Assembly: GCA_020200615.1 (NCBI GenBank)
Contig: JAIVIH010000338.1
Span: forward strand, 1-8,093
Direction: 5' to 3'
Source: Actinomycetota bacterium
GTDB taxonomy: Bacteria > Actinomycetota > Acidimicrobiia > Acidimicrobiales > AC-14
DNA: 8,093 nucleotides
Shown here: positions 1-8,093 of the stretch, piece after piece
Numbering within the stretch: position 1 is the stretch's first letter
How the letters are laid out: each line of letters starts with the position of its first letter
Program-made: the position numbers and the translations under genes
Notes under the pieces: generated by a model
The model's input: the letters and a program-made list of their open reading frames with translations, nothing else
Database searches by the model: none
What the model was told of the DNA's origin: nothing

Positions 1-557
1 ACGATGATCTCAAGGGCGCCTCGGGTACGGAGGCCCTGGTTCGAGCCGATCCAAGACCCGAGGGGCATCACCGTGGCGCACCCGACCTCTTCCAGGCGCT
101 TGCACAGCACGGGATCGGCGTTCACGTAGGGAAGCACGGTGAAGCCGTCGGCGACGAGGATCTCGGCCGCCTTGAGCGTCTCCACGGGGTCGGGAAGGAG
201 GTAGCGGGGGTCGGGGGTGATCTCGAGCTTGATCCACGTGGGCAGCCCCGCGGCACGGGCCAGACGGGCCAGCCGCACCGCTTCCTCGGCGTCGTCGGCG
301 CCGCTCGTGTTGGTGAGCAGCAGGACCCGATCGGGGTCGATGGCGTCGAGGATGTCGTCGTCATCGCCGCTCCCGGGCGACGGAGACAGCGGCGCGTCCA
401 TCCGGCGCAGGGCGACGGTCACCATCTCGGTGCCCGACGCCTCGATGGCCCCTCGGAGGGCAGCGTTGGACGGGAACTTCCCGGTGCCGACGAACAGCCG
501 CGAGCTGAACTGGCGCCCGGCGATCACCAGGGCATCGCTTCCGTTGAGATCGGACAA
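1..557 (-). CDS. thiG: Thiazole synthase ThiG (partial, C-terminus beyond left edge)
   Basis: ThiG makes the thiazole phosphate half of thiamine from 1-deoxy-xylulose 5-phosphate, dehydroglycine and the thiocarboxylate of the carrier ThiS, in the cytoplasm. The 185 residues visible cover about 70% of the usual ~255-residue TIM-barrel. They show the family landmarks: [19 protein letters not shown] at 10-28, [11 protein letters not shown] at 44-54, the Schiff-base lysine K110 in WIKLEI, FTVLPY at 139-144, and the phosphate-site segment [12 protein letters not shown] at 164-175. The start is TTG at 557: an in-frame TAA lies nine codons upstream, and AAGGGAG (573-567) sits nine bases before it. 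GTG and ATG codons nearby are in other frames or too far inside. The gene lies immediately behind a TPP riboswitch, so it should be shut off when thiamine pyrophosphate is plentiful. No thiS precedes it; thiS must lie downstream or elsewhere. Confidence 0.93.
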
Positions 558-704: not shown

Positions 705-1043
705 GTGCGCCTGTGGACCGTCGACGAGGCTCGGGCCTACCTTCCGAGGGTCCGCGAGCTGGTCGAGGTCATCCGCCAGGCGGCGCTCGTGCGCTCCGGC
801 CGGCACCCCTCGACCAACGGGCAGCGGTCGTCGCTGGTTGACGCCCAGGAGGCGTACGAGGAGCTCCAGGCGGGCGACATCATCCTCCGGGACGCCACCA
901 CCGGCCTCATCGACTTCCACGCCCAGGGGGAGGACGGCGTCGTCTACTACCTGTGCTGGCGGCGCGGCGAGCCCGAGCTGGCCTGGTGGCACCTGCCCGA
1001 GGAGGGCTTCCCCGGCCGCAAGCCCCTGCCCCGAGAGCCATGA
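705..1043 (+). CDS. DUF2203 family protein
   Basis: A 112-residue soluble protein of the DUF2203 family, whose function is not known. It has the family's layout: an N-terminal WTVDEARAYLPRVRELVEVI helix (residues 4-23) and a middle helix leading to the 'long glycine' segment GDIILRDATTGLIDFHAQ. The end is WRRGEPELAWWHLPEEGF followed by PGRKPL, matching the family's conserved 'lCWr.ge..i.fWH....Gf.gR.pl' close. The GTG at 705 gives the complete family N-terminus and lies just behind a TANNNT box with no leader. There are no signal peptide or membrane segments. Its stop overlaps the start of a small membrane ORF (ATGA, 1040-1043), so the two are probably translated together. It is divergent from thiG; nothing in the sequence ties it to thiamine. 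Confidence 0.88.
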   Translation: MRLWTVDEARAYLPRVRELVEVIRQAALVRSGRHPSTNGQRSSLVDAQEAYEELQAGDIILRDATTGLIDFHAQGEDGVVYYLCWRRGEPELAWWHLPEEGFPGRKPLPREP

Positions 1044-1197: not shown

Positions 1198-1761
1198 ATG
1201 GCCGAGCAGTTCGACGTCGTCGTCATCGGAGGGGGCCCGGGCGGGTACGCGGCCGCCCTTTACGGGGCGGGAGCGGGCCTCAGGGTTGCAGTCGTCGAGC
1301 GCGAGAAGGTGGGTGGCACCTGCCTGCACCGGGGTTGCATCCCGGCCAAGCAGTTCCTGGAGACGGCCACCGTCTTCCGCACCGTGGCCGGGGCCAAGGA
1401 GTTCGGCGTCATGGCTGACCAGCCCACGGTCGACTTCGCCGCCTCCCAGGCTCGCAAGCAGAAGGTCGTCGACCAGCTGTGGAAGGGCCTCCAGTCGCTC
1501 ATGAAGGGCCGCAAGATCACGACCGTCCAGGGAACGGGCACCCTCCAGCCGCATCAGACCGTACGGGTGGACGACGGGACCGAACTGAAGGGGCGGGCGG
1601 TGATCCTGGCCAGTGGATCGGTCCCCCGCACCCTTCCCGGATTCGACGTCGACGGCCGGTTCGTCCTCACGTCGGACGAGGTCCTGGCCCTCGACCGGCT
1701 ACCCGCATCGGCCGCCGTCATCGGAGGCGGGGCCATCGGGTGTGAGTTCGCGTCTCGATGA
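1198..1761 (+). CDS. lpd: Dihydrolipoyl dehydrogenase (E3), N-terminal part; gene split by a frameshift
   Basis: First 187 residues of the flavoprotein that reoxidises dihydrolipoyl groups of 2-oxoacid dehydrogenases and the glycine cleavage system with NAD+. Seen: the FAD dinucleotide-fold GGGPGG at 11-16, the redox disulfide C42/C47 in GGTCLHRGCIPAK, and the start of the NAD-binding fold VIGGGAIGCEFAS at 174-186. Reading then hits TGA at 1759-1761. The rest of the enzyme follows without loss in the -1 frame from 1758. The family expects CEFAS to run straight into MMSDLGTQVTILE; removing one TC from TCTC (1753-1756) restores exactly that. The full gene would be 1198-2588, about 462 residues, a normal E3 length. 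As read, this piece lacks the rest of the NAD domain and the interface domain and should be inactive alone. The ATG at 1198 directly follows a TAGTCT box. Confidence 0.93.
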   Translation: MAEQFDVVVIGGGPGGYAAALYGAGAGLRVAVVEREKVGGTCLHRGCIPAKQFLETATVFRTVAGAKEFGVMADQPTVDFAASQARKQKVVDQLWKGLQSLMKGRKITTVQGTGTLQPHQTVRVDDGTELKGRAVILASGSVPRTLPGFDVDGRFVLTSDEVLALDRLPASAAVIGGGAIGCEFASR

Positions 1762-2588
1762 TGAGCGACCTGGGAACCCAGGTGACGATCCTCGAGGCCC
1801 TCCCCCAGATCCTCCCCGGTTGTGACGCCGACGTGGCCAACGTGGTCGTGCGATCGTTCAAGCGCCGGGGCATCGACGTGCGCACCGGGGTACGGATCGA
1901 GGGCCACGATCCTTCGGGCGAGCAGACGACGGTCAAGCTGGCCGACGGGTCCTCGGTGACGGTGGACGCCATCGTGATGAGTGTCGGCCGGCGGCCCCTG
2001 TCGGAGACGCTCGGGCTGGACGGCACGGCGGTGGAGGTCGACGCCAAGGGCTTCGTGGTGGTCGACGAGCACCTGCGCACGGGTGAGGACGGCGTCTACG
2101 CCCTCGGTGACCTGATCAACACCCCGCAGCTCGCCCACGTGGGCTTCGCCGAAGCCATCGTCGCCGTCAAGGACATCCTCGGGGAAGATGCGGTGCCGGT
2201 CGACTACCAGCGCGTCCCCTGGTGCATCTACTGCTTCCCGGAGGTGGCCTTCGCCGGGCTGTCCGAGCAGGCCGCCGAAGACGCAGGGATCGACGTGGTC
2301 GTGGCCAAGCACCGCTTCAACGGCAACAGCCGCGCCCTCATCGTGGGCGAGCCCGAGGGTTTGGTGAAGGTCATCGCCGAGAAGGGGGCCGACGGCAAGG
2401 CCGGCCGCCTGCTCGGGGTACACATGGTCGGACCCTGGGTCACCGAGCAGCTGGCCGAGGGCTACCTGGCCGTCAACTGGGAGGCCACCCCCGACGAGGT
2501 CAGTCACTTCATCCATCCACACCCGACGTTGTCGGAGACATTCGGCGAGACCGTCATGGCGCTCACCGGAAGGGGGCTTCACGGCTGA
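1758..2588 (+). CDS. lpd: Dihydrolipoyl dehydrogenase (E3), C-terminal part; continuation after frameshift
   Basis: Remaining 276 residues of the E3 begun at 1198. They contain most of the NAD-binding domain (DLGTQVTILEALPQILP), the second FAD-contact segment YALGDLINTPQLAHVGFAEA, and the dimer-interface domain. The latter ends in HPHPTLSETFGE with catalytic H255 and E260. No family region is missing. The apparent ATG (1758) overlaps the upstream TGA as ATGA. No Shine-Dalgarno-like sequence precedes it, so independent translation is doubtful unless coupled. The Met pair sits where the unbroken protein has MMSDLG, so this 'start' is most simply an internal codon. The end overlaps the E2 start by one base (TGATG, 2586-2590), typical of one operon. 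Confidence 0.92.
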   Translation: MMSDLGTQVTILEALPQILPGCDADVANVVVRSFKRRGIDVRTGVRIEGHDPSGEQTTVKLADGSSVTVDAIVMSVGRRPLSETLGLDGTAVEVDAKGFVVVDEHLRTGEDGVYALGDLINTPQLAHVGFAEAIVAVKDILGEDAVPVDYQRVPWCIYCFPEVAFAGLSEQAAEDAGIDVVVAKHRFNGNSRALIVGEPEGLVKVIAEKGADGKAGRLLGVHMVGPWVTEQLAEGYLAVNWEATPDEVSHFIHPHPTLSETFGETVMALTGRGLHG

Positions 2589-3103
2589 TGCCCGACATCA
2601 CCATGCCGCAGCTGGGCGAGACCGTCACGGAGGGAACCATCACCAAGTGGTTCAAGAAGGTCGGCGAGCAGGTGGTGGAGGACGAGCCGCTGTTCGAAGT
2701 GTCGACCGACAAGGTCGACTCCGAAGTCCCCTCCACCGCCTCCGGGTACGTGTCGGAGATCCTCGTGCAGGAGGGCGAGACGGTCGACATCGGCGTCAAG
2801 CTGGCGGTCATCGAAGCGGGCAAGCCCGGAGAGGGAGGCGGGACCTCGCAGGCGGAAGCCACCGAGGAGGCTGAGGGCGGCGAGCCGGCCGAGGCCAAGG
2901 CCGAGTCGCCCCCGTACGAGGAGCAGACCGAGCCCGTCCCCGAGGACAGCGACCCCCGCCCGCCGGGCGCCGAAGCGGAGGCGGCCAGCGCCGAGCGCCA
3001 GCAAGAGCGGGTGGAGGCCGAGGACAGTTCGACCCCTCCGAAGGAGACCGCCAAGCCGGCGCCTGCGGCCGAGGCTGCCCCGCCCACCCCTCCGAGCACA
3101 TGA
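2588..3103 (+). CDS. Dihydrolipoamide acyltransferase (E2), lipoyl domain and linker; gene disrupted
   Basis: A 171-residue product. Residues 1-77 are a complete biotinyl/lipoyl domain: MPQLGETVTEGTITKW, then EVSTDKVDSEVPS with the lipoylated lysine K42, then VQEGETVDIGVKLAVIE. Residues 78-171 are a low-complexity Glu/Ala/Pro/Gly linker. In an intact E2 the subunit-binding domain (~40 residues) and catalytic domain follow; here reading ends at TGA 3101-3103 with no binding domain in any frame. AAGGGGG (2570-2576) is a fair ribosome binding site before ATG 2588. An upstream in-frame ATG at 2222 would read through lpd and is rejected. In this operon K42 is the expected target of LipB/LipA and the swinging arm that E3 reoxidises. 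Whether the complex is the 2-oxoglutarate (sucB) or pyruvate type (pdhC/dlaT) cannot be settled without E1, so I give no symbol. Confidence 0.88.
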   Translation: MPDITMPQLGETVTEGTITKWFKKVGEQVVEDEPLFEVSTDKVDSEVPSTASGYVSEILVQEGETVDIGVKLAVIEAGKPGEGGGTSQAEATEEAEGGEPAEAKAESPPYEEQTEPVPEDSDPRPPGAEAEAASAERQQERVEAEDSSTPPKETAKPAPAAEAAPPTPPST

Positions 3104-3759
3104 TCAAGTCGCAGGCCACGTCGGCCCATGTGCTGGTGGCGACCGAGGTCGACTACTCGGGCGTCGACCGGGTGAGGATGGCCGAGCGCAACGCCTTCAA
3201 GGAGAAGGAGGGCTTCTCCCTCACCTACCTGCCCTTCATCGCCCGCGCCCTCATCGACGCCCTCGCCGATTTCCCCCACGTCAACTCCTCGGTGGGGGAC
3301 AACGCCCTGACCATCCACCGTCGCATCCACCTGGGAATCGCCGTCGACCTCAGCTTCGAGGGACTCATCGTCCCCGTCGTGCACGACGCCGACCAGATGC
3401 GCCTGCGGGCCCTGGCCCGGAGGATCGCCGACCTGGCGCACCGCGCCCGTTCCCGGGAGCTGACGGCGGACGACATCTCGGGCGGCACCATCACCATCAC
3501 CAACCCCGGGCCCTTCGGGACGTTCCTCACGTTCCCCGTCATCAACCAGCCTCAGGTGGCCATAGTCTCCACCGACGGCATCCGGAAGCGCCCGGTGGCG
3601 GTGGAGCTGCCCGACGGGTCCGACGCCGTCGCCGTCAGGCCGGTGGGAGTGCTCGGTCTCGCGTTCGACCACCGTGCCTTCGACGGTGCCTACGCTTCCG
3701 CGTTCCTGGCCCGGGCCAAGGAGATCCTGGAAACCCGCGACTGGTCCCAGGAGGTCTAG
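3100..3759 (+). CDS. Dihydrolipoamide acyltransferase (E2), catalytic domain lacking its first residues
   Basis: A 219-residue 2-oxoacid dehydrogenase acyltransferase domain. Seen: ATSAHVLVATEVDYS at 6-20, LTYLPFIARA at 41-50, HLGIAVDLSFEGLIVPVVHDAD spanning 77-98, the core GGTITITNPGPFG at 128-140, and the catalytic DHRAFDG with H191. It begins at MIKSQ, which in the family is an internal point of the helix '(R)..iAeHMv+SkatsAHV'. About 12-15 catalytic-domain residues and the whole subunit-binding domain are absent. The three codons before the ATG in this frame (TCC GAG CAC) still read S-E-H, so homology resumes slightly upstream of the apparent start. That looks like a deletion junction rather than a true start. 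No ribosome binding site precedes it; the ATG overlaps the upstream stop (ATGA, 3100-3103). Its tail carries the AGGAGGT used by lipBA. Confidence 0.88.
   Translation: MIKSQATSAHVLVATEVDYSGVDRVRMAERNAFKEKEGFSLTYLPFIARALIDALADFPHVNSSVGDNALTIHRRIHLGIAVDLSFEGLIVPVVHDADQMRLRALARRIADLAHRARSRELTADDISGGTITITNPGPFGTFLTFPVINQPQVAIVSTDGIRKRPVAVELPDGSDAVAVRPVGVLGLAFDHRAFDGAYASAFLARAKEILETRDWSQEV
3749..3755 (+). promoter_or_regulatory. Strong ribosome binding site of lipBA
   Basis: AGGAGGT, a perfect anti-16S match, ends ten bases before the ATG at 3766 and overlaps the last codons of the E2 gene. It fixes the lipBA start. It is the best Shine-Dalgarno sequence in the window and contrasts with the missing sites before the ATGs at 1758 and 3100. 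Confidence 0.75.
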
Positions 3760-3765
3760 CCCGGT

Positions 3766-5376
3766 ATGGGAGCACCGCTCCGGGCCCGCTGGTTGGGCCG
3801 AGTGCGCTTCGCCGACGCCCTGGCCCTTCAGAGGTCCCTGTTCCTACAGGCGTCTGACCCCTACCTGCTCCTGCTGGAGCACCCCCACGTGTTCACCCTC
3901 GGGCTCCGGGGCGACATGCAGCACGTGCTCGTCGATCCCGCCGCCGTCGGCGCCGAGCTGGTCCGCACCAACCGGGGGGGCGACGTCACCTACCACGGAC
4001 CGGGGCAGCTGGTCGGCTACCCGATCCTGTCGTGGCCCGACGGTCCCGACGCCACCCCCGCCTACGTGCACTCCGTCGAGCAGGTCGTCATCGACGCCTG
4101 CGCCGACGTCGGCCTGCCCGGCCTGGGTCGGCTCCCGGGCTATCCCGGTGTCTGGGTGGATGTCGACGGCCCCGACCCCCGGAAGGTTTGCGCCGTGGGG
4201 GTCCGCCGCACCCGGGGCCGCACGATGCACGGCTTCGCCCTCAACGTGGAGCCCGACCTGGCCTGGTTCGACCGGATCGTGCCCTGTGGCATCCCCGACA
4301 AGGCCGTCACGTCCCTGGCCGCCGAGGGGGTCACCGCCTCCATGAGAGACGTGGTCGAGGCCGTCGTGGACCGAGCTTCCCGGCGATGGGCCGCCGGCCG
4401 GGTCGACCGGGCTGACGTCGCCTGGCGCGCCCCGTCAGCCGGAGTCGATGGTTCGCACGGCGACCGCCGGCGGGCCGAGGCCGGCCTCGTCGACGGCCTT
4501 TCCATAAGCGAACGCAAGCCGCCGTGGCTGCGGGTCCAGGCCGACATGGGGCCCGGATACCGGAAGCTGAAGCGCACCATGCGCTCCCTCGACCTCGTCA
4601 CCGTTTGCGAAGAGGCGGGCTGCCCCAACATCTTCGAGTGCTGGAACGACGGGACCGCCACCTTCATGATCAACGGCGAGCGCTGCACCCGCTCCTGCGG
4701 TTTCTGCCTGGTCGACACCCGGCGCCCGTCAGGTCCGCCCGATCCCGAAGAGCCGGAGCACGTGGCCGAGGCGGTGGCCCACATGGGCCTGTCCCACGCC
4801 GTGGTCACGGCCGTGGCGCGCGACGACCTGTCCGACGGCGGGGCGGGCCAGTTCGTGGACACCGTCGCCGCCATCCGCCGCCGCTGCCCTCAGACGACGG
4901 TCGAGCTGCTCATCCCCGACTGCAAGGGCGACCCGGAGGCGTTGAACACCCTCTTCGCCGCTCGCCCGGACGTGCTCAACCACAACCTGGAGACGGTGGC
5001 GCGGCTGCAGCGGGCGGTGCGGCCCCAGGCGTCCTACGCCCGAAGCCTGGGCGTGCTGGGCCAGGCCGGGGCGGCCGGGCTGGTCACCAAGTCGGGCCTG
5101 ATCGTCGGCATGGGTGAGACCGAGGAAGAGGTCCTCTCCGCCATGATCGACCTGCGCAGCGTGGGCGTCGACATCCTCACCGTGGGGCAGTACCTCCGGC
5201 CCACGTCCGACCACCTCCCGGTCGCACGGTGGTGGCGACCGGAGGAGTTCGACCGCATCCGCCAGGCCGGCCTGGCCATGGGCTTCGCCCACGTGGAGGC
5301 CTCTCCCCTGACCCGCTCCAGCTACCACGCCCGCCAGGCGACGGAGGCCGCCGCAGGGGGTCAGGTCGGTCCGTAG
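3766..5376 (+). CDS. Fused octanoyltransferase LipB - lipoyl synthase LipA
   Basis: One 536-residue ORF holds both steps of de novo lipoylation. Residues 1-221 are LipB, which moves octanoyl from acyl carrier protein to a lipoyl-domain lysine: RGGDVTYHGPGQLVGYP at 70-86, Lys140 in RKVCAVGVRRTRGRTMHG, and the active-site Cys174 in PCGIPDKAVTSL. Residues ~250-528 are LipA, a radical-SAM enzyme that inserts two sulfurs: C281/C286/C292 of CEEAGCPNIFEC hold the auxiliary cluster, C307/C311/C314 (CTRSCGFC) hold the radical-SAM cluster, and RSSYHA is at 517-522. A ~28-residue Gly/Ala/Arg-rich linker joins them. It contains no ATG, GTG or TTG in frame, so a separate LipA start is not available without losing conserved sequence. 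All catalytic residues of both halves are present. It lies six bases after the E2 stop, in the operon of its substrate. Separate lipB and lipA genes are the usual arrangement. Confidence 0.94.
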   Translation: MGAPLRARWLGRVRFADALALQRSLFLQASDPYLLLLEHPHVFTLGLRGDMQHVLVDPAAVGAELVRTNRGGDVTYHGPGQLVGYPILSWPDGPDATPAYVHSVEQVVIDACADVGLPGLGRLPGYPGVWVDVDGPDPRKVCAVGVRRTRGRTMHGFALNVEPDLAWFDRIVPCGIPDKAVTSLAAEGVTASMRDVVEAVVDRASRRWAAGRVDRADVAWRAPSAGVDGSHGDRRRAEAGLVDGLSISERKPPWLRVQADMGPGYRKLKRTMRSLDLVTVCEEAGCPNIFECWNDGTATFMINGERCTRSCGFCLVDTRRPSGPPDPEEPEHVAEAVAHMGLSHAVVTAVARDDLSDGGAGQFVDTVAAIRRRCPQTTVELLIPDCKGDPEALNTLFAARPDVLNHNLETVARLQRAVRPQASYARSLGVLGQAGAAGLVTKSGLIVGMGETEEEVLSAMIDLRSVGVDILTVGQYLRPTSDHLPVARWWRPEEFDRIRQAGLAMGFAHVEASPLTRSSYHARQATEAAAGGQVGP

Positions 5377-5400
5377 CGGGCCCGCTCACTGCGGGGACCG
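5367..5400. terminator. Possible bidirectional hairpin between convergent genes
   Basis: CGGTCC (5367-5372) pairs with GGACCG (5395-5400) and GTAG (5373-5376) with CTGC (5389-5392), with a two-base bulge. The loop holds the self-complementary GCGGGCCCGC (5376-5385). It spans the nine bases between the convergent stops of lipBA and the DUF1990 gene. There is no T-run on either side, so intrinsic termination is uncertain. Confidence 0.3.
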
Positions 5401-6672
5401 GTTGTGCGCCGCGTTCGGCTTCAGCCCGTCCGCGGTGAGGCGCGCCATCCGCTCGCAGGCCCGCCGGGCGAACTTCACCTGCTGGCGCCGGCCGAAGAGC
5501 CGTAGGCCTAGGCCCACGATGGGGTTGGGGACGCGGGACCGGCGGGAGAACCGGCACGTGCGGAACTCCACTTCTCCCGTGTCCAGCCACTTCCACACCT
5601 CGTAGTCCATCTGTCCCATCTCCAGGTGACCCTGAAGGGTGCGGTAGTTCCACCCCCACACCTGCACCTTCCGTCCGTCGACCACGCGCGCCTCTTCGAC
5701 CACGCCCCCGACACGAACGCCCAACCGGAAGCGAAGGCCGTAGAAGCGAGCCTCGAGGAGCATGTCGCGCTCCTCCAGCGGCCGGTCCGGGTGGTAGACG
5801 GCGCGGACAATCGCAGGATCGGCGAACTCGTAGTTGCGCATAAGCTCGCGGGCGACCTCCCACGAGCCGCCGGGGACGGGTGGCCCCGGCGGTTCGGAGG
5901 GCAGCGGCTCGCAGTACTCGTCGACCAGCCAACCCTTCTCCGGCGTGAACTGGCCCCGCTGGCCGAGGTCGAAGTTGAGGCCCTTGTCGTGGAGCTCGTC
6001 GAGGATGCGCCTCGCCTCGGGGTCGCCCAGCGATGCCCCACCCCTGAACGCAGCCTCGCCCACTCGCCTGGTGTCAATGTCGATGCCCCCCGCCAGCCGG
6101 CCGCCAGCCACCTCCGACACCCGCTCCAGGAAGGAGATCCACATGTGGAGCTGGACCTCCTTGGCCATGCGGACGCCCTGGTACATGAAGCTCGAGAGGC
6201 GGTCCCCGCTGCGGGCCCAGGACTCGATGGTGAAGACCAGCTCCTTGTTCGAGGCACCTGCGACCCGGAACTCGATCTGCCCCGCCTCCAGATGCCCCTC
6301 CAGCGTGACCAGCTGGAAGGAGGTGGGCGTCACCGCGACCACCCGCACGGGTCCGTCCCATGGCCCCGGCATGCGCACCACGAACTCGTCTCCTGGCCGG
6401 AGGGTGCCGTCCTCGCCGCGGACCTTGTGGAAGCGGGCGAACTCCGTAGGCGCAACCGCGTCGAGGTCGGTGCTGACCTGTTCGAACAGGTCTTCGGGTG
6501 TGTAGCGGGAGTCACTGATCCGGGCCTGGTACCGGCGGTGGAAGAGGGGACCGGCGCCCTGCTCGGGAAGTTGGACTTCGTCGTGGGACACATCGGGCGG
6601 GAGGTCGGGCGGACAGTCCTCAGCCAGTGACCCCGGCCGCTCTCGACGGTGGAAGGGCGTCGTCCGCCACAT
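5386..6672 (-). CDS. Tandem DUF1990 domain protein
   Basis: A 428-residue protein with no known function. It has two copies of a DUF1990-type domain (related to plant UPF0548 proteins), roughly at residues 45-205 and 270-415. The duplication is visible: EGHLEAGQIEFRV at 125-137 matches QGHLEMGQMDYEV at 347-359. The first copy continues with ELVFTIESWARSGDRLSSF and AKEVQLHMWISFLERV; the second with VEFRTCRFSRRS and a basic C-terminal helix (LRLFGRRQQVKFARRACERM). Between them lies a more variable, Pro-rich stretch. There is no signal peptide or clear membrane span. The ATG at 6672 (start of MWRTTPFHRRE) is the only usable start nearby, although homology-like sequence (FGIGLTSWHY) continues in frame upstream, so a rarer start is possible. 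No good ribosome binding site is seen. The same frame stays open to 7488, but that part lies under other genes and is chance. Convergent with lipBA. Confidence 0.8.
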   Translation of the reverse strand: MWRTTPFHRRERPGSLAEDCPPDLPPDVSHDEVQLPEQGAGPLFHRRYQARISDSRYTPEDLFEQVSTDLDAVAPTEFARFHKVRGEDGTLRPGDEFVVRMPGPWDGPVRVVAVTPTSFQLVTLEGHLEAGQIEFRVAGASNKELVFTIESWARSGDRLSSFMYQGVRMAKEVQLHMWISFLERVSEVAGGRLAGGIDIDTRRVGEAAFRGGASLGDPEARRILDELHDKGLNFDLGQRGQFTPEKGWLVDEYCEPLPSEPPGPPVPGGSWEVARELMRNYEFADPAIVRAVYHPDRPLEERDMLLEARFYGLRFRLGVRVGGVVEEARVVDGRKVQVWGWNYRTLQGHLEMGQMDYEVWKWLDTGEVEFRTCRFSRRSRVPNPIVGLGLRLFGRRQQVKFARRACERMARLTADGLKPNAAHNRSPQ

Positions 6673-6700
6673 GTAGTGCCACGACGTGAGCCCGATCCCA

Positions 6701-6716
6701 AAGGTAGCTTGCCCGA
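6701..6716. promoter_or_regulatory. Overlapping divergent -10 boxes (putative bidirectional promoter)
   Basis: On the plus strand TAGCTT (6705-6710) lies six bases before the ATG at 6717, the leaderless spacing. On the minus strand TACCTT (6706-6701) would start transcription near 6694, about 22 bases before the DUF1990 ATG. The two boxes share two bases. No clear -35 is visible either way. The call rests on motif and position only. Confidence 0.4.
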
Positions 6717-6929
6717 ATGCTAACTGGACTCCTGCACTCCAGCGGACTGCGCGGCTGGCACCTTCACCTGACGTCGCTCGGATCCGTGGGGCTCTGCATC
6801 GGCCTGTGGATCCGGGCCAAGACCGTCGACCAGGACGAGCGGGGGAACGCCGAGCGGCGCGCCCTCTTCGTAGGGCTGTGGCCGCCCACCCTCTGGCTGA
6901 TCGGGGACTCCCTCGAGCGTCACGACTAG
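6717..6929 (+). CDS. Small hypothetical protein, probably membrane-associated
   Basis: A 70-residue product I cannot assign to a named family. Two hydrophobic stretches are visible, SLGSVGLCIGLWI (about residues 20-32) and RALFVGLWPPTLWLIGDSL (about 48-66). They are separated by a charged loop RAKTVDQDERGNAERR. This pattern would suit two short membrane segments with the charged loop inside the cell. The second stretch, with FVGLW-PPTLWLIG, resembles a recurring motif in small uncharacterised bacterial membrane proteins, from memory. The ATG is placed by the TAGCTT box six bases upstream; no ribosome binding site is present. The gene is divergent from the DUF1990 gene and its stop is six bases from the pdxH stop on the other strand. 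Its codon choice is GC-rich like its neighbours, which supports it as a real gene. Confidence 0.6.
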   Translation: MLTGLLHSSGLRGWHLHLTSLGSVGLCIGLWIRAKTVDQDERGNAERRALFVGLWPPTLWLIGDSLERHD

Positions 6930-6935
6930 CCGGTC

Positions 6936-7514
6936 TTACGGCCAGAGGAGCTGGCCCACCCACTCGTCTGGGTCGGAGCCCCGCCGGTACCGGATGCGGT
7001 GGTGCAGGCGGTCCGGGAGGCCCTGCCACAGCTCGATCTCCTCGGGGACGATCCGGTAGCCGCCCCAGTAGGGGGGTCGTGGGACGGGACGGCCGGAGAA
7101 CTCCTCCACCACCTCGACCAGCCGGGCCTCGAGCTCCTCCCGGTTGGCCAGGGGCTGGCTCTGGCGGGACGCCCATGCCCCAAGCTGGTGCCCGCGAGGG
7201 CGGCCCGCGAAGTACCGGTCGGACTCCTCGGGCGCCAGTCCCTCCACGGGGCCCTCGACCCGCACCTGGCGCTGCAGCTCGTCCCACACGAGCACCAGGG
7301 CGGCCCGGGGATTGGCGGACAGCTCCCCGCCCTTGCGGCTCCGGGTGTCCGAGTAGAAGACGAACCCTCGCCGGTCCAGACCCCGGAGGATGACGGCCCT
7401 GGCCGAGGGCCGGCCGTCGGGGCTGGCCGTGGCCACGATGGCGGTGTCGTAGCCGGGCAGGCCGGCCGTCTTGGCCTCGGCCAGCCACCCCTCCACCTGC
7501 TCGACCGGGTTCAT
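6936..7514 (-). CDS. pdxH: Pyridoxamine 5'-phosphate oxidase
   Basis: This FMN enzyme oxidises pyridoxamine or pyridoxine 5'-phosphate to pyridoxal 5'-phosphate with O2, in the cytoplasm. The 192 residues are somewhat shorter than E. coli PdxH (218) because of a short N-terminus. The family motifs run in order: ARAVILRGLDRRGFVFYSD at 38-56, the FMN-phosphate segment SRKGGEL at 59-65, RQVRVEGPVE at 82-91, SDRYFAGRPRGHQLGAWASR at 98-117, and the C-terminal PYWGGYRIVPEEIELWQG then DRLHHR (168-173), which contacts the substrate phosphate. The ATG at 7514 gives the normal family start; an in-frame ATG at 7763 would add 83 Arg/Gly-rich residues overlapping the divergent peptidase and is rejected. 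It is divergent from that peptidase with 38 bases between. A hairpin of GGCCAG/CTGGCC (6940-6956) lies within its last codons. Confidence 0.95.
   Translation of the reverse strand: MNPVEQVEGWLAEAKTAGLPGYDTAIVATASPDGRPSARAVILRGLDRRGFVFYSDTRSRKGGELSANPRAALVLVWDELQRQVRVEGPVEGLAPEESDRYFAGRPRGHQLGAWASRQSQPLANREELEARLVEVVEEFSGRPVPRPPYWGGYRIVPEEIELWQGLPDRLHHRIRYRRGSDPDEWVGQLLWP
6940..6956 (+). terminator. Possible hairpin downstream of the 70-residue gene
   Basis: GGCCAG (6940-6945) and CTGGCC (6951-6956) form a perfect six-base stem with a five-base loop, starting 11 bases after the plus-strand stop at 6929. It lies inside the end of pdxH on the other strand and has no T-run. It may act as a weak stop or may only reflect codon use. 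Confidence 0.2.
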
Positions 7515-7540
7515 GGGGCCCAGTGTCCCGCGACCACCGG

Positions 7541-7552
7541 TACCCTCGCCCC
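7541..7552 (+). promoter_or_regulatory. Putative leaderless promoter of the M24 peptidase gene
   Basis: TACCCT (7541-7546) stands six bases before the GTG at 7553, the same layout as at 1186 and 6705. It lies in the 38-base gap between pdxH and the peptidase. No clear -35 is visible and no ribosome binding site precedes the GTG. Confidence 0.4.
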
Positions 7553-8093
7553 GTGGCTGCCGACTTCGCCCATCGTGCCGACCGCGTCCGGGTCCGGATG
7601 GGCGACGTGGGCGTCGACGCTCTGCTTCTCTCGCTAGGCGCCGACCTGCCCTGGTTGACGGGCTACGCAGCCATGCCCCTCGAGCGGCTGACCATGCTCG
7701 TGCTGCCCGACGACGGCCTCGCCACCCTGGTGGTACCTGCGCTGGAAGCCCCTCGCGTGGCACCGTGCCCCGACGTGTTCTCTATCCGGCCCTGGGCCGA
7801 GACGGAGGACCCGGTCGCCGTCGTCGCCGGGCTCGTCGGCCGGCGGCGACGGCTGGCCGTCTCCGACCGCACGTGGGCGACGTCCGTCCTGGGGCTTCAG
7901 AAGACGCTCCCCGAGGCGCTATGGCAGGTGGCGTCGACCGTCGTCGGACCGCTGCGGGCGGTCAAGGACAAGGGCGAGATCGCGGCCCTGGCCGAGGCCG
8001 CCTCGGCCGCCGACCGGGTCGCGGGCCAGCTCCTGGGCGGCGAAGTGCCGCTGATCGGACGGACGGAGGCGGACGTGTCGAGGGACCTCGGCG
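7553..8093 (+). CDS. M24 family (Xaa-Pro aminopeptidase-like) peptidase, N-terminal part
   Basis: The first 180 residues of a peptidase of the M24 'pita-bread' family run off the right edge. Only the N-terminal creatinase-type domain is seen: MAADFAHRADRVRVRMGDVG, then VDALLLSLGADLPWLTGY (the common '.d.lll....n..yltGf' strand), then ERLTMLVLPDDGLATLVVPALE. The domain closes with VVGPLRAVKDKGEIAALAEA (the usual 'lr.iKd..Ei..lr.A' hinge), after which the catalytic domain begins. Metal ligands (two Asp, His, two Glu) lie beyond the window. It could therefore be a true X-Pro peptidase, a prolidase or an inactive relative. The GTG at 7553 fits the family N-terminus and the TACCCT box. An ATG 15 codons downstream would cut the first helix. 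Confidence 0.85.
   Translation, partial: MAADFAHRADRVRVRMGDVGVDALLLSLGADLPWLTGYAAMPLERLTMLVLPDDGLATLVVPALEAPRVAPCPDVFSIRPWAETEDPVAVVAGLVGRRRRLAVSDRTWATSVLGLQKTLPEALWQVASTVVGPLRAVKDKGEIAALAEAASAADRVAGQLLGGEVPLIGRTEADVSRDLG

Follow-up and report, generated by a model that had tools for sequence, protein, structure and literature searches.

LipB and LipA, the order in which they act and the frequent neighbourhood of their genes are classical, and the chemistry of both steps has been established for the LipB and LipA of other bacteria. LipA acts on octanoate that is already bound to protein and uses up one of its own iron-sulfur clusters per turnover, so that how the octanoylated domain reaches LipA is a real question. 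A described one-chain system close to the present one is NF053790 (LplA_LipA_fuse, bifunctional lipoate--protein ligase/lipoyl synthase), whose name points to a member of the same wide family placed before LipA, but with a lipoate ligase as the N-terminal part. A 2023 study on lipoate assembly in prokaryotes mentions LplA-LplB fusions, and none of the six uses of "fusion" or "fused" in its accessible text concerns LipB-LipA (PMC10332631). A description of a LipB-LipA fusion was likewise not found in the titles, abstracts and passages, mostly from outside subscription journals, that the literature search covered, including passages of PMC3904984, PMC4398509, PMC12246082, PMC3917532, PMC9307952 and PMC10218983.

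The DNA analysed here, referred to as the window, is a stretch of 8,093 nucleotides from contig JAIVIH010000338.1 of an Actinomycetota bacterium of the order Acidimicrobiales (assembly GCA_020200615.1), and its features are collected in Table 1. An earlier reading made from the letters alone (the sequence-only reading) had placed LipB and LipA together in one 536-residue frame, and this is borne out by curated NCBIfam models, the cut-offs of which are exceeded by both halves. The LipB half scored 171.5 bits against PRK14345 (residues 4-207, cut-off 155) and 128.9 bits against TIGR00214 lipB (cut-off 83.55), with matches to three further LipB equivalog models, PRK14341, PRK14342 and PRK14343, falling under their own cut-offs; the LipA half scored 352.3 bits against TIGR00510 (residues 247-527, cut-off 310.25) and 396.9 bits against PRK05481 (residues 251-529, cut-off 203). 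Pfam placed PF21948 at residues 16-202, PF16881 at 249-286 and PF04055 at 305-459 of the fused protein, the ATG of which lies 6 bases past the stop of the E2 gene. Assignment to NF053790 was rejected, since the protein matched only model positions 330-605, the LipA part, and its 352.3 bits fall short of the cut-off at 800. Relative to separate LipB (PRK14345/TIGR00214; structure 1w66), the window protein has the whole domain with the catalytic Cys and Lys and the RGG loop, but continues into a C-terminal lipoyl synthase where LipB ends after about 215 residues. Relative to separate LipA (TIGR00510/PRK05481; structures 5exi-5exk), it has the whole radical SAM domain, both Cys triads and RSSY, but this LipA is without a start of its own and has LipB in front of it.

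Table 1. Features of the window, in positions of the 8,093-nucleotide stretch
Feature	Position	Strand	Remarks
thiG, partial	3-557	-	
DUF2203	705-1043	+	
lpd (E3, dihydrolipoyl dehydrogenase)	1198..2588	+	Frame broken near 1750-1761 in the window copy
E2 (2-oxoacid dehydrogenase acyltransferase)	2588..3759	+	Lipoylation substrate; frame broken in the window copy
Shine-Dalgarno-like AGGAGG	3749..3754	+	Within the terminal part of E2, separated from the ATG by 11 bases; putative role
Fused LipB-LipA gene	3766..5376	+	Single ATG-opened frame, 536 aa, stop within the coordinates
LipB domain (octanoyl-ACP:protein octanoyltransferase), residues 4-207	3775..4386	+	NCBIfam PRK14345 above cut-off; Pfam PF21948
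RGG loop, residues 70-72, LipB half	3973..3981	+	Invariant in 92/92 aligned fusions
Lys140, LipB catalytic dyad	4183..4185	+	Invariant in 92/92
Cys174, LipB catalytic dyad	4285..4287	+	Invariant in 92/92
Linker, residues 209-250	4390..4515	+	Without in-frame start codon
LipA domain (radical SAM lipoyl synthase), residues 251-529	4516..5352	+	NCBIfam PRK05481 and TIGR00510 above cut-offs
Cys281/286/292, CX4CX5C	4606..4641	+	Invariant in 92/92
Cys307/311/314, CX3CX2C	4684..4707	+	Invariant in 92/92
RSSY, LipA C-terminal motif, residues 517-520	5314..5325	+	R517, S518 and S519 invariant; Y in 84/92
DUF1990 in a long frame	5386-7488	-	Shares positions with the oxidase gene, which is read in a different frame
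Pyridoxamine 5'-phosphate oxidase	6936-7763	-	
Creatinase_N	7523-8092	+	Cut by the window end

The catalytic residues of both enzymes, which had been read as complete, were all located, namely Lys140, Cys174, the two Cys triads and RSSY. The auxiliary CX4CX5C motif reads CEEAGCPNIFEC (residues 281-292), its three cysteines being, as we take it from the LipA literature, ligands of the auxiliary 4Fe-4S cluster, and the CX3CX2C motif reads CTRSCGFC (residues 307-314), presumably the radical SAM cluster motif. Conservation was judged on an alignment of 92 fusions drawn from the sequences at hand, 55 of them database proteins and 37 from named loci; the invariance in it of Lys140, Cys174, the RGG loop, the six LipA cysteines and R517, S518 and S519 indicates that both sites are under selection. 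For E. coli, full LipB activity is reported to depend on the RGG loop (PMC9307952). It is highly improbable that one half, more likely LipB, has lost catalysis and now acts in docking or regulation: nothing was found in favour of such a role, the dyad, the RGG loop and other LipB residues do not vary among the aligned fusions, and a further LipB was usually not found in the genome.

The linker between the domains had been described as free of ATG, GTG and TTG, leaving LipA without its own start, and a codon scan agrees, as no such codon occurs in frame between 4367 and 4545 of the window; the nearest in-frame starts are GTG 4366 (codon 201, within LipB) and ATG 4546 (codon 261, within LipA). 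These two codons bear on the reading that the protein is made fused and then separated, through cleavage of the linker or internal initiation at one of them, to release free LipA. The GTG would yield LipA with an N-terminal extension, and separate LipA proteins do carry variable in-frame upstream extensions; yet the stretch between the two codons holds no start, and the ATG would drop the beginning of the LipA domain, where K251 is conserved in 90/92 and P252 in 92/92 fusions, which makes this reading very unlikely. From W208 to P252 the linker measures 43 residues in the window and 25-92 across the 92 fusions, and such variation in length and sequence argues against a tightly conserved channel running through it. 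AlphaFold predicts a strand at residues 213-217 and a helix at 231-238 within the linker, the second half of which shows a recurring R-L-x-x-A-G-V pattern, and by eye its C-terminal part is similar to the extension that certain separate LipA proteins have at their N-terminus, among them those of L093, L094, L096 and L097.

The genes immediately upstream are broken in the window copy. For lpd, positions 1-187 and 188-460 of TIGR01350 fall in two frames, relatives such as L002 and L007 have lpd intact through the equivalent of the break, and the frameshift may be either an assembly error or decay. For E2, the lipoyl-domain part and the catalytic part are out of frame with each other; missing as well is a stretch that by eye resembles an E3-binding domain and that L001, L002, L007 and L011 have between the two parts. 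Two broken frames in adjoining, functionally linked genes are odd, and they may reflect errors in the window contig or an operon in decay. It could be supposed on the same ground that a sequencing or assembly artefact removed a stop codon from the fused gene itself, as the damaged frames lie on the same contig directly 5' of it; that almost certainly did not happen, given that the same open junction recurs throughout the class genomes and named loci described below.

The spread of the fusion was assessed in 394 genomes sampled from the class to which L012 ("Acidimicrobiia bacterium") belongs, Acidimicrobiia going by record titles; in this class sample 372 genomes had a match and 22 did not. 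The frame was open over the LipB/LipA junction in 364 of the 372 matching genomes, some of which are truncated by a contig end beyond it; the count rests on single matches that span both halves, on a DNA check of two-piece cases and on a DNA check of single-piece matches that contain a stop. Matches in two or more pieces (86 genomes) were rechecked on the DNA, and for the nine single-piece matches holding a stop the DNA placed it past LipA in all nine. G321 and G373 were counted by their spanning matches, and G255, where the DNA check showed LipA alone, through its single spanning match. Among the eight genomes not counted, the LipB tail and LipA head share one frame on the DNA in G158, G170 and G312 (the last with a stop within its LipB half), the locus is truncated at contig ends in G391, G108, G365 and G207, and in G097 a LipB stands alone, closed by its own stop and with no neighbouring LipA. 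At the loci of named genomes both halves lie in a single stop-free frame in 37 of 38, and the remaining one (L038) begins within LipA at a contig end. An indel or stop in the linker, or close relatives with two genes, would have spoken against the fusion, and neither was seen.

Single proteins matching both families, for which a database search had been proposed, were found. When long proteins were searched with the LipB half, scoring only candidates that share most words, 119 of the best 120 of 7995 matches were LipB followed by LipA, and the names among those 120 listed proteins were Acidimicrobiales, Acidimicrobiia or Actinomycetota MAGs. L030 ("Bifidobacterium breve") and L003 ("Acidobacteria bacterium") likewise have a fusion and a gene neighbourhood of the Acidimicrobiia type, and their MAG names look doubtful for that reason.

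More than one locus, not being pieces of one cut gene, occurred in seven class genomes (G058, G070, G158, G186, G284, G321 and G373), with two fusions in G373. In the other class genomes no LipB or LipA besides the fusion was detected at E 1e-10, in a second-copy search that scored, for part of the class sample, at most three candidates per genome. Given that second copies are rare, the fused protein very probably performs both lipoate steps, to judge from the sequences. G058 carries, at C83 (L114), adjacent separate lipB and lipA of about 40-50% identity besides the fused gene, and these were perhaps acquired or are a contaminant; in L115 (G207) the LipA frame runs upstream, near a contig end, into a stretch that by eye is PurD-like, perhaps through chimeric assembly.

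Outside the class the picture is different. In a phylum-wide sample 74 of 90 genomes matched, and the seven with a spanning match all belong also to the class sample; of the 67 matching genomes that belong to the phylum but not to the class, none gave a spanning LipB-LipA match. A DNA check of 25 of those 67 (20 chosen for gene closeness and 5 from another class of the phylum) revealed no fusion, and none was present at 20 loci of that other class, 17 of which had both genes and 3 LipA only. Three candidate fusions in the second class (G429, G484 and G485), suggested by equal open-frame lengths for the two halves, were discarded when the DNA showed a stop between the halves. The fusion thus tracks one clade, the class Acidimicrobiia (364/372 against 0/67 outside), a point that the sequence-only reading had left to be checked. 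On spread, where that reading had given the two genes as normally separate, a correction is due: the LipB-LipA fusion is not rare but the usual form in this class of environmental bacteria and not a one-sequence oddity, and further fusions exist among relatives of E. coli LipB.

We next considered where the fused gene sits and how it may have arisen. An E2 catalytic domain is encoded immediately upstream of the fusion at 33 of 37 named loci, and the order lpd-E2-fusion holds at 29 of the 37, so that the fused enzyme is encoded next to its own substrate. In the separate-gene relatives chosen for closeness, lipB precedes lipA on the same strand at 16 of 20 loci, with a gap below 240 bases in 15, the order of the two genes being reversed at the remaining 4; in the other class lipB precedes lipA on the same strand at 17 of 20 loci, with a gap below 340 bases in 16. 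The fusion probably arose by the joining of adjacent lipB and lipA. Trees were computed from 78 rows, 75 of them different, comprising 39 fused rows (38 of 128 fused loci and the window) and 39 separate ones, and the fused rows fell on one side of a branch with SH-aLRT support of 93 for LipA, 92 for LipB and 96 for both joined. In wider trees of 58 rows that also took in the fusions of E. coli LipB relatives described below, the long-branched fused row L124 no longer grouped with the fused rows for LipA, and for LipB the fused label required 3 changes, for which reason a single origin of the Acidimicrobiia fusion is graded as likely rather than proven.

Such an origin could have been largely neutral: the stop of lipB would have been lost between adjacent co-transcribed genes, harmlessly and with no catalytic gain, fixed in the ancestor and then hard to reverse. 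The closeness of lipB upstream of lipA in many unfused relatives, the variable linker and the likeness of its C-terminal part to separate LipA extensions all agree with this reading, which we regard as possible, if short of an even chance. Against it, no clear reversal to two genes was seen in the 372 class genomes, the lone LipB of G097 being one possible case, and the fusions of other lineages, including those in reverse order, exceed what neutral chance would give; yet going back to two genes would take a start codon and a ribosome-binding site that the fused gene lacks.

Those other fusions were found by querying long proteins with E. coli LipB. Among the best 120 of 669 matches at least 103 had both domains, at least 18 of them in the order LipB-LipA and at least 85 in the order LipA-LipB; over all listed proteins the reverse order occurred at least 149 times. 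Of the fusions listed in either order, only three come with a host name: a Gammaproteobacteria MAG (P0137) and a Rhodanobacteraceae MAG (P0139), both with LipB-LipA, and a Steroidobacteraceae MAG with LipA-LipB (P0294, from a third listing of the best 120 of 514 matches in which only candidates sharing most words were scored), and all named hosts of fusions outside the Acidimicrobiia set are Gammaproteobacteria. The LipA-LipB protein P0197 is encoded on a contig of 2.79 Mb. The motifs CX4CX5C, RSSY, HGPGQ and PCG were present in all 88 full-length matches to the E. coli query, and CX3CX2C in 87; by score, E. coli was nearer than the window for the LipB half in 88/88 and for the LipA half in 85/88. 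Other LipB fusions appeared in precomputed Pfam annotation, with PF04359 (presumably DUF493) in P0127, P0132 and P0179, with PF04480/PF18741 in P0128, P0130 and P0133, with PF13673/PF13508/PF00583, which we take to be acetyltransferase domains, in P0138 and P0149, and with PF01612 in P0123; in E. coli, the DUF493 gene ybeD lies immediately 5' of lipB.

The LipB-LipA fusions of the E. coli LipB relatives (P0139, P0137) share domain order and both active sites with the window protein, but the LipA tree places them with E. coli LipA, apart from nearly all Acidimicrobiia rows, so that their origin is most likely independent of that in Acidimicrobiia. Separate E. coli LipA nests within these LipB-LipA rows, and the LipA-LipB rows form one clade with support of 100. 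The reverse fusions (P0294; P0162, P0203 and P0243, the last three under the JGI name "lipoate synthase/lipoate-protein ligase B") resemble the window protein in having the same two predicted activities per chain, but have LipA first and LipB last. On these trees and domain orders, LipB-LipA linkage most likely has three or more origins, with both orders among them.

The structure of the window protein was predicted with AlphaFold at a mean pLDDT of 93.2 and a pTM of 0.93, with pLDDT dropping below 50 for three or more residues in a row only at 223-226; at these values the two domains are predicted in a defined relative position. In Foldseek the halves aligned to 5exk (lipoyl synthase, TMt 0.94) and 1w66 (LipB, TMt 0.82). 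A PDB sequence search together with Foldseek matched the C-terminal half to 5exi-5exk, human LIAS and cyanobacterial LipA and the N-terminal half to the LipB structures 1w66 and 2qhs, and no PDB chain covering both halves was among the matches listed (8 from the sequence search, 50 from Foldseek). The reverse-order P0197 was predicted at a pLDDT of 68.8 and a pTM of 0.48, from an alignment of 91 closely alike sequences with a mean column identity of 73%, a poor model that bears on channelling in neither direction.

A confident joint placement could mean that the fusion is retained for channelling in a fixed geometry, with the domains packed so that the LipB site would hand the octanoylated lipoyl domain over to the LipA site unreleased. 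The joint model is compatible with channelling, which the sequence-only reading had raised as a possibility, without demonstrating it, the predicted strand and helix and the recurring pattern of the linker would suit it, and the additional fusions among E. coli LipB relatives suggest repeated selection for linkage. The range of linker lengths, 25-92 residues, stands against it, as does the occurrence of both domain orders, which does not suggest one required geometry, and we consider fixed-geometry channelling doubtful as the reason for retention. A bolder proposal, which we hold to be unlikely, is that of a repeatedly evolved assembly line, arisen once in Acidimicrobiia and at least twice among E. 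coli LipB relatives, once with the domains swapped, along which the octanoylated lipoyl domain would be passed unreleased; a LipB-LipA partnership might then exist unfused in ordinary bacteria as well.

Taken as a whole, the data favour the reading that the gene encodes a bifunctional octanoyltransferase-lipoyl synthase, with one origin in Acidimicrobiia from adjacent genes, kept for proximity, to which we assign a probability of roughly 0.8; the two activities, the existence of a single protein in the cell and the benefit are argued from sequence comparison. The LipB half would load octanoate, donated by acyl carrier protein, onto Cys174 as a thioester and pass it to a lipoyl-domain lysine, most directly that of the neighbouring E2 and probably that of GcvH too, and the LipA half would insert two sulfurs at C6 and C8 of the bound octanoyl chain. 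The gene would have been born once, in an ancestor of Acidimicrobiia, when lipB and lipA were joined within an lpd-E2-lipB-lipA cluster, and would have persisted from then on, usually with no other lipB or lipA detectable. Proximity would be the likeliest gain, a freshly octanoylated lipoyl domain being already beside the enzyme that inserts sulfur, and the two enzymes would be made 1:1. Retention for proximity and matched dosage is the explanation we favour, direct hand-over is possible, and neutral fixation is a serious rival.

The fused form is already present in sequence databases, mostly under one-sided names: among the matches listed, NCBI calls the chain "lipoyl synthase", or "lipoyl(octanoyl) transferase LipB" for some partial records, and such names mask one of the two activities, with consequences for annotation. 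The fusion is a real and widespread variant of the classical pathway, and a natural one-chain enzyme that occurs class-wide, and again elsewhere in both orders, offers a ready system for hand-over tests.
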